From a virus: a stretch of 22,611 nt of DNA. Every line of letters begins with the position of its first letter. Position 1 is the stretch's first letter. This document shows positions 14,746 to 16,293 of the stretch, one piece after another. The stretch is from positions 1-22,611 of IMG/VR virus record IMGVR_UViG_3300030380_004024. One strand, written 5' to 3'. The translations under genes and the position numbers were made by a program. The notes below the pieces were generated by a model that searched no databases, was not told the DNA's origin, and saw nothing but the letters and a program-made list of their open reading frames with translations.

Positions 14746-14755
14746 TATTTAATTG

Positions 14756-14829
14756 TACACCTGTCAGGACTCGAACCTGAAACCTACGCATTAGAAGTGC
14801 GTTGCTCTATCCTGTTGAGCTACAGATGC
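14756..14829 (-). tRNA. tRNA-Arg(UCU)
   Basis: A 74-nt cloverleaf on the minus strand: acceptor GCATCTG/CAGGTGT (with two wobbles), D-arm GCTC/GAGC, anticodon stem ACGCA/TGCGT with loop CTTCTAA (anticodon UCU, reading AGA), T-arm TCAGG-TTCGAGT-CCTGA, discriminator A. No CCA is encoded. It sits between the lipoprotein gene and terL, 9 nt from the former and 10 nt from the latter. Phage tRNAs often supply codons rare in the host; AGA is common in this window. Confidence 0.95.
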
Positions 14830-15629: not shown

Positions 15630-15853
15630 CGGCTTCTTCTTCTTCTGGGCCTATTGTTAGCCCTGTTTATTGATTGAGGCTGCTGCTGAGTGGCATCAGA
15701 CATCCCCATGTGAGCTTCATCAAGACCATCGCCATTGCCGTATGTTCCCTTGCGCCGATTGATGCGATTCAGATTTGCTCTATACCTTCGAGCCTTGAGC
15801 CTTGAGCCATATTTGGCATATTCTTTTTTGTAGTCTCTTTTCTTGACTCTCAT
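15626..15853 (-). CDS. Arg/Lys-rich small protein (75 aa)
   Basis: The frame can be read from 15988, but that start would lie in the tRNA-like element. The Met at 15853 fits better, being 4 nt after a promoter box. From there it reads MRVKKRDYKKEYAKYGSRLK and ends NNRPRRRRSR. The central part has RKGTYGNGDGLDEAHMG, recalling the KGTYG leader of the 85-residue basic protein. About a third of residues are basic. Its stop overlaps the next start (ATGA). No function is known; a nucleic-acid-binding or virion role is possible. Confidence 0.7.
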   Translation of the reverse strand: MRVKKRDYKKEYAKYGSRLKARRYRANLNRINRRKGTYGNGDGLDEAHMGMSDATQQQPQSINRANNRPRRRRSR

Positions 15854-15865: not shown

Positions 15866-15871
15866 AGAAAG

Positions 15872-15948
15872 TCCGCGAGGTGGGACTTGAACCCACATGT
15901 AACCAGTTACCCTTTCTACAAGGTATAAGCTTGAGGGGATACTCGCGG
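15872..15948 (-). tRNA. tRNA-like element with perfect acceptor and T arms, no normal D-arm
   Basis: On the minus strand a perfect 7-bp acceptor stem (CCGCGAG/CTCGCGG), a perfect T-arm (GTGGG-TTCAAGT-CCCAC) and discriminator A enclose 77 nt. The middle does not fold as a normal cloverleaf. The best anticodon-like hairpin is CAAG-CTTATAC-CTTG, whose loop has U33 and would give anticodon UAU (AUA, Ile), with only 7 nt before it instead of a D-arm, and a long 'variable' part containing GTAAC-TG-GTTAC. It may be a noncanonical tRNA, a decayed tRNA or a tRNA mimic. Confidence 0.55.
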
Positions 15949-16293
15949 TTATGAATTTCTTCGCTCGTGTGTCCTCTTGCGGTGGCAATTAGCACATCGT
16001 ATTTCGCATTTGCGAATCTCTTCTTTAATCGTATCTATGCCATAACATTGATTTACCATGTCAGCGATGTTCTTAATCTTCTCCCCGCACACATGGTCAA
16101 ACTCCAAGACGATAGGATTAGACTCTCCGCAATCGACGCAGCTTAAAATTGTCTTAACCCTTCTGATAAACTCTCTAGCCCATTTGCGTTGATTCCTATT
16201 TCTACGCTTGGCTCTTTTCTTGTACTGCTCTTTATACTTTTGGTAGTGAGCAGCCGAAGCTTTCTTTTGATCTTCAGGGTCTTTGTAAGCCAT
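15949..16293 (-). CDS. HNH endonuclease
   Basis: A 114-residue protein with a basic N-terminus (YKKRAKRRNRNQRKWARE) and a C-terminal HNH domain: CVDC (52-55), FDHV with D66/H67, and CANCHRKRTHER with C100, C103 and H104. The four cysteines would bind structural zinc and D66/H67/H104 the metal for DNA cleavage. Free-standing HNH genes in phages are usually homing endonucleases; some assist terminase. Its stop codon (15949-15951) directly abuts the tRNA-like element, and its start overlaps the 47-residue gene as TGATG. Location upstream of terL permits either role. Confidence 0.88.
   Translation of the reverse strand: MAYKDPEDQKKASAAHYQKYKEQYKKRAKRRNRNQRKWAREFIRRVKTILSCVDCGESNPIVLEFDHVCGEKIKNIADMVNQCYGIDTIKEEIRKCEIRCANCHRKRTHERRNS

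Follow-up and report, generated by a model that had tools for sequence, protein, structure and literature searches.

The structural elements of canonical tRNAs follow one another in the order acceptor, 5' strand of the D-stem, D-loop, 3' strand of the D-stem, anticodon arm, variable loop and T-arm. A 2024 paper states that every known bacterial tRNA is a cloverleaf, and phages are not mentioned in a review of non-canonical tRNAs. The D-armless tRNA-Ser of metazoan mitochondria and the armless mt-tRNAs of nematodes are shortened molecules that function in mitochondria and have a connector where the D-arm would be (PMC7609411), and an engineered E. coli tRNA-His without a D-arm, 'mini HisT', has been found to be accepted by the bacterial translation machinery (PMC11551756).

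The stretch of DNA analysed here (22,611 nt, hereafter the window) is an IMG/VR viral contig. Its large terminase has 49% identity to the counterpart in an uncultivated Caudoviricetes phage, and identity to Flavobacterium phage terminases is about 41%. An initial annotation, made from the letters of the window alone, had placed a tRNA-like element in it at coordinates that proved exact (Table 1), and had left three explanations open: a tRNA mimic, an unusual Ile(AUA) tRNA or a processing signal. Our comparative analysis supports the second and makes the other two less favoured. With a probability of roughly 0.8, the element appears to be a working isoleucine tRNA (anticodon UAU, reading AUA) from a phage-borne class in which the order of the strands is unlike that of every canonical tRNA. 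The enclosing helix, the relocated D-loop motif, the arginine branch and the wide spread of this family had all been overlooked in the initial annotation.

Layout and covariation of the element

Read on the minus strand from 15948 to 15872, the element is CCGCGAG-UA-U-CCC-CU-CAAG-CUUAUAC-CUUG-UAGAAA-GGG-UAACUGGUUACAU-GUGGG-UUCAAGU-CCCAC-CUCGCGG-A. The layout comprises the acceptor stem, UAU, a 3-bp helix (helix 2) around a 4-bp anticodon arm, a single-stranded segment of the form UAAnnGGN..ACAU and the T-arm.

Table 1. Features of the element and of its neighbourhood in the window.
Feature	Position	Strand	Basis or remark
Whole element, predicted tRNA-Ile(UAU) without D-hairpin, 77 nt, complete	15872-15948	-	RF00005 30.5 bits; family model R2; covariation
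Acceptor stem, 5' strand CCGCGAG	15942-15948	-	Partner 15873-15879; 7/7 pairs
UAU linker, positions 8-10, conserved	15939-15941	-	Conservation
Helix 2 (D-stem-like), 5' strand CCC	15936-15938	-	Partner 15910-15912
Anticodon stem, 5' strand CAAG, 4 bp	15930-15933	-	Partner 15919-15922
Anticodon loop CUUAUAC	15923-15929	-	Anticodon UAU at 15925-15927; U33 and A37 in all
Internal-loop strand UAGAAA, conserved	15913-15918	-	GAAA invariant in A1
Helix 2, 3' strand GGG	15910-15912	-	Same basis as 5' strand
Single-stranded UAACUGGUUACAU, putative relocated D-loop-like segment	15897-15909	-	UAA, GG and ACAU invariant; N20/anticodon rule
GG of UAACUGGUUACAU	15903-15904	-	
U equivalent to position 20	15902	-	
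T-arm GUGGG UUCAAGU CCCAC	15880-15896	-	5/5 pairs; covariation
Acceptor stem, 3' strand CUCGCGG	15873-15879	-	Same basis as 5' strand
Discriminator A73	15872	-	Followed by encoded C at 15871
HNH-like endonuclease ORF, neighbour outside the RNA	15949-16293	-	Ends immediately 5' of element
Canonical tRNA-Arg(UCU) of the same phage, neighbour	14755-14829	-	ARAGORN; Rfam tRNA model

The covariation check proposed in the initial annotation was carried out on 42 aligned relatives; RNAalifold independently arrived at this same layout, with compensatory changes at 17 of the 19 pairs. The consensus helices encompass, in alignment columns, the acceptor stem (1-7/71-77), helix 2 (11-13/37-39), the anticodon stem (16-19/27-30) and the T-stem (54-58/66-70), with 97.2% of the cells paired and a covariation of 0.804, as opposed to 0.204 in shuffled and at most 0.145 in slid alignments. 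A broader set of 42 Arg and Ile relatives, pre-selected for pairing, returned the same structure with 18 of 19 pairs, and the consensus of both sets lacks a D-hairpin. Both-sided changes are present at all seven acceptor pairs; helix 2 is 100% paired with compensatory changes at all three of its pairs, and the anticodon stem is 98% paired, also with compensatory changes. Helix 2 (bases 11-13 with 37-39) is paired in 236/236 elements, the selection of which could have let an unpaired helix 2 through, and an unpaired connector of the mitochondrial D-armless type is hence not what these positions form. The single-stranded parts UA, GAAA, UAA, GG and ACAU are invariant, in part as a result of the search patterns used; in the linker, UA is invariant and the third base near-invariant in A1, and UAU is invariant in A2.

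These results bear out much of the initial description, which had noted perfect acceptor and T-stems with a canonical T-loop, the register with loop CUUAUAC and anticodon UAU about 7 nt past the acceptor stem, and the lack of a 5-bp anticodon arm. The anticodon stem defined by covariation has 4 bp, and in the window it presents a further U.U and a 7-nt loop, short of the 5 bp of the canonical cloverleaf. The reported absence of a D-arm holds for the D-hairpin, but the 3-bp helix around the anticodon arm had been missed; likewise, the long variable part exists as a segment, but it is single-stranded, carries a D-loop-like GG and forms no variable-arm hairpin. Two outcomes had been named as counting against the element, a canonical cloverleaf found by a tool and a middle that is random in homologs. 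Neither ARAGORN nor the Rfam tRNA model yields such a cloverleaf, and the middle is highly conserved in relatives.

The conservation of the middle is central to assessing whether the element could be a tRNA gene in decay that has kept its ends by chance. ARAGORN gives no call for the element, as might be expected of a decayed gene, and locus L206 (912-987, -) presents a degenerate copy beside an intact one, with the acceptor stem kept and the core and T-stem broken. The middle of the element is nonetheless its best-conserved part among relatives, above the ends, and compensatory changes occur in every helix across unrelated phages. Covariation and the 97.2% pairing rule out a tRNA pseudogene, and decay thus has a probability close to nil. 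Covariation similarly rules out a type II tRNA of canonical form or a cloverleaf read in some other register, which we deem scarcely credible: the window copy does allow a variable-arm hairpin GUAA/UUAC to be drawn, but this hairpin shows no covariation, with one pair broken in 16/42 relatives and another in 8/42, and the consensus structure is devoid of a D-hairpin.

The element is non-random far beyond chance, being kept across unrelated phages, scoring 92.3 bits with family model R2 (of which the window copy is itself part) and folding 3 sd below shuffles as a single sequence. The minimum-energy fold of the window copy (-26.4 kcal/mol, as opposed to -21.8 kcal/mol for the consensus structure) was considered as a candidate structure and rejected, since with 72.6% pairing and a covariation of 0.107 it has little support and is not conserved. 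Minimum-energy folds of single sequences mostly differ from the consensus structure (median gap 3.3 kcal/mol), which would therefore need tertiary contacts or modification.

The arrangement can be rationalized as a swap of D-loop and anticodon arm across the 3' strand of the D-stem, which would give the order acceptor, UAU, D-stem-like 5' strand (3 nt), anticodon arm, D-stem-like 3' strand (3 nt), GG-bearing loop and T-arm. Helix 2 (3 bp) is probably stacked on the anticodon stem (4 bp), forming a single rod of about normal length, and the relocated GG probably docks on the T-loop in the manner of G18-G19, which would generate an L shape with the next base shown as position 20. Computation establishes the secondary structure and its conservation and, as described below, the restricted anticodons, the position-20 rule, the complementarity with canonical tRNAs and the scarcity in sampled host genomes; we infer that the RNA would be transcribed, processed and charged, adopt an L-shaped fold and be used by the ribosome.

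Anticodons, position 20 and probable use by the phage

The pattern scans of viral contigs left the anticodon free (one matched 117 contigs, the other matches being lower bounds), and only Arg or NAU anticodons appear among the matches listed. The 236 elements comprise 103 with Arg anticodons (ACG 47, UCU 38, CCU 13, UCG 3, GCG 1, CCG 1) and 133 with NAU anticodons (UAU 85, GAU 29, CAU 19). GG is followed by A in 103/103 Arg members, and by T or C in 132/133 of those with NAU; shared ancestry inflates these and other statistics of the family, and clustering at 86% identity leaves 72 Arg clusters with A, 56 NAU clusters without A and one NAU cluster with A. In the canonical tRNAs encoded at these loci, A follows the D-loop GG in 154/162 Arg, 4/69 Ile and 113/1326 other tRNAs. 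The discriminator N73 is A in 133/133 NAU members and G (56), A (35), T (11) or C (1) in Arg members. CCA is encoded in 70/103 Arg members and C74 is nearly universal, as it is in the canonical tRNAs of the same loci (1686/1753).

A20 is the main determinant for E. coli ArgRS, together with A/G73, and Ile identity depends on A73, the anticodon and D20/D21 of the D-loop (PMC9976931). The simplest reading would be that the GGN segment is a relocated D-loop and that these RNAs are charged, with Arg members keeping A20 for ArgRS and Ile members keeping A73, A37 and mostly U20. Members with a CAU anticodon may be Ile tRNAs, after lysidine modification, or Met tRNAs. The window copy combines the UAU anticodon with GGU and A73, as in the proposed swapped-loop class, and is expected to decode AUA as Ile.

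A stratified analysis of contig pieces from phages of differing hosts covered loci with five or more canonical tRNAs; a canonical tRNA with the same anticodon was present in 4/114 cases with a swapped tRNA versus 146/475 without one (CMH z -6.0). An exception is Streptomyces phage Mildred21, which carries swapped and canonical Ile(GAU) together. This distribution suggests that the phage uses the swapped tRNA in the slot of the canonical isoacceptor. Swapped GAU and UAU copies occur together in L113, L158 and L241, and elements often sit in tRNA arrays. The codon usage of the window phage agrees with its Ile(UAU) and Arg(UCU) genes, though it is not a test of their use: 22% of the Ile codons are AUA, and AGA accounts for 49% of those for Arg.

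These data also bear on the possibility that the element is a mimic or decoy, a tRNA-shaped RNA binding a synthetase, an anticodon nuclease or another tRNA-binding protein outside translation. The unusual core would be compatible with such a role, the Ile/Arg restriction could mirror particular host targets, and a decoy for a synthetase or nuclease would keep identity bases too; moreover, phage tRNAs are known to act against tRNA-cutting defences (PMC10264068, PMC11555353). The presence of all six Arg anticodons and of three NAU anticodons is, however, what decoding would lead one to expect, swapped tRNAs replace the canonical isoacceptor of the same anticodon, and the 3' end is encoded as CCA or C74 at the frequencies given above, all of which renders a mimic unlikely. 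Regarding the element as a decoding tRNA, it is tempting to propose that these topologically different phage tRNAs attain the same L shape, use ordinary ArgRS/IleRS and ribosomes, and are kept because defence nucleases recognizing the D-arm, the 5-bp anticodon stem or the variable loop cannot cut them. We advance this complete scenario tentatively, as one that is less likely than not, and its evasion component is speculative.

Distribution, genomic context and detection

At least 236 distinct relatives with the same geometry were identified in unrelated phages, including crAss-like, Streptomyces and huge phages. BLAST searches with the element returned matches in Streptomyces phages, Bacteroides and macaque crAss-like phages and a rodent-gut phage, and the matched viral contigs include sizes of 200-548 kb. 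A scan of the genomes of 84,980 species with the family pattern detected 26 stretches, the majority of which scored as members with model R1, and ten bacterial genomes that were checked harbor one or two copies each. In two phyla that were sampled, only the already known genome was positive (1/395 and 1/398, with few candidates scored per genome). E. coli genomes presented no match to one made-up Arg-type query, and plasmids yielded nothing beyond short partial matches. The family is hence essentially phage-borne, and its near absence from the sampled host genomes led us to reject a housekeeping host tRNA.

Several additional observations were made on these contigs. A 61-kb contig of Mesorhizobium sp. 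Root552 carries an Arg(UCU) member with T at N73 and an encoded CCA (L207, 2737-2811, +). A second sequence type, type B, was found in L216 (4553-4629, +), L232 (4973-5049, -), L137, L170, L413, L414 and others; it has the same enclosing helix, a 5-bp anticodon stem and a GGNUG core, and follows the position-20 rule (A in 4/4 Arg, T in 15/15 Ile), and one of its members is called by ARAGORN as an 88-nt tRNA-Ile. Divergent members with longer or altered internal loops occur in Alishewanella and Vibrio phages and viral contigs (L089, 263-338, +; L411, 1500-1583, +; L105, 2864-2942, +; L115, 872-950, -; L259, 4235-4314, +), and some that misfit the fixed parse may be further variants. Group I introns (Rfam RF00028) lie inside phage tRNA arrays with swapped tRNAs (L113, 176-404, -; L295, 6439-6638, +). 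A tmRNA gene (L214, 3346-3719, +) and ARAGORN-called tRNA-Pyl(CUA) genes (L214, 4755-4826, +; L232, 8039-8115, -) were also detected on contigs with the swapped tRNA, the latter genes being possible amber-reading tRNAs.

In the window, the element lies between co-directional genes, the HNH-like ORF (16293-15949) and a small ORF with a likely start near 15853. The former displays a CxxC..DH..CxxCH motif, read by eye, and had no Pfam match at 1e-3. In several phages, HNH-like genes (Mildred21, 90931-91365; A3Wally, 93240-93602) stop just short of the element, at a distance of one to a few nucleotides, an arrangement that suggests homing near tRNA genes. As a general partner, HNH-like genes were discarded: by a rough motif, they are upstream of 10/229 elements versus 29/1966 canonical tRNAs. 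The cases next to elements come mainly from the window's own clade, so the HNH-like gene is not essential.

The position directly after the HNH-like stop codon, between co-directional genes, would also agree with a cis-acting signal for processing or regulation within the operon transcript, with tRNA ends borrowed for RNase P or RNase Z, as would the distance of 246-1469 nt that separates the element from the downstream terminase gene in 24/57 relatives with enough sequence. Other copies, in contrast, are found inside tRNA arrays and beside unrelated genes, and a cis signal would have no need for an anticodon that covaries with position 20, which makes this explanation very improbable.

Standard tools detect the family poorly. 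The only ARAGORN call in the window is the neighbouring tRNA-Arg(UCU), and the Rfam tRNA model recovers the element at 30.5 bits (cut-off 29), aligned without a D-arm; across the family, scores lie close to the cut-off, at 29-32 bits, or fall below it. With R2, main-type members reach 72-92 bits, canonical tRNAs from these loci do not exceed 27, and the divergent types fall in between. On a Proteobacteria MAG contig (L203, 1109-1185, + and 1190-1266, +), two swapped-type tRNAs stand in tandem, with the Arg anticodons ACG and UCU, at a locus where ARAGORN reports no tRNA. In isolated phages, the swapped tRNA is usually miscalled or left without annotation: the copy in Streptomyces phage EGole is annotated as tRNA-Leu, the Arg(UCG) element of Mildred21 as tRNA-Phe(gaa) and the related but divergent Arg(UCU) element of Alishewanella phage Slickus01 as tRNA-Ser, and the Arg(ACG) copy of Microbacterium phage A3Wally has no annotation. 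Phage tRNA counts and codon-compensation studies are therefore incomplete, because standard finders miss or misname swapped tRNAs.

Comparison with known tRNA architectures

Searches of open PubMed Central papers returned no description of a swapped phage tRNA class, and the swapped Ile/Arg family is apparently undescribed. Its existence suggests that the standard cloverleaf may not be the sole tRNA layout used with ordinary cellular ribosomes. A natural swap in which position 20 still carries the ArgRS determinant would show that the cloverleaf order counts for less than the L shape and the identity points, and swapped tRNAs could readily be used to test how synthetases recognize tRNA, what ribosomes tolerate and whether tRNA-cutting defences can be evaded.

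The swapped tRNAs share with canonical bacterial tRNA-Ile and tRNA-Arg (RF00005) a 7-bp acceptor stem, a 5-bp T-arm with a TTCRA loop, a 7-nt anticodon loop with U33 and A37, A73 (Ile) or mostly G/A73 (Arg), GG with the N20 identity base, C74 or CCA and a length of about 77 nt. They differ from them in lacking a D-hairpin, in carrying the anticodon arm inside the 3-bp helix, in the placement of GG(N20) between this helix and the T-arm and, in the main type, in the 4-bp anticodon stem. The absence of a D-hairpin is shared with the mitochondrial D-armless tRNA-Ser and armless nematode mt-tRNAs, but the swapped tRNA is of normal length, has an extra enclosing helix and keeps the D-loop motif elsewhere. 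The E. coli 'mini HisT' likewise has no D-arm, but it is an engineered deletion of 62 nt that needs a pnp mutation in vivo, and its layout is not swapped (PMC11551756). Lastly, 8/4 and 9/3 tRNAs, allo-tRNAs and tRNA-Sec (see also PMC7609411) resemble the swapped tRNA in having deviant arm lengths and in being found beyond standard finders; all of them keep the cloverleaf arm order, whereas the swapped tRNA changes it.
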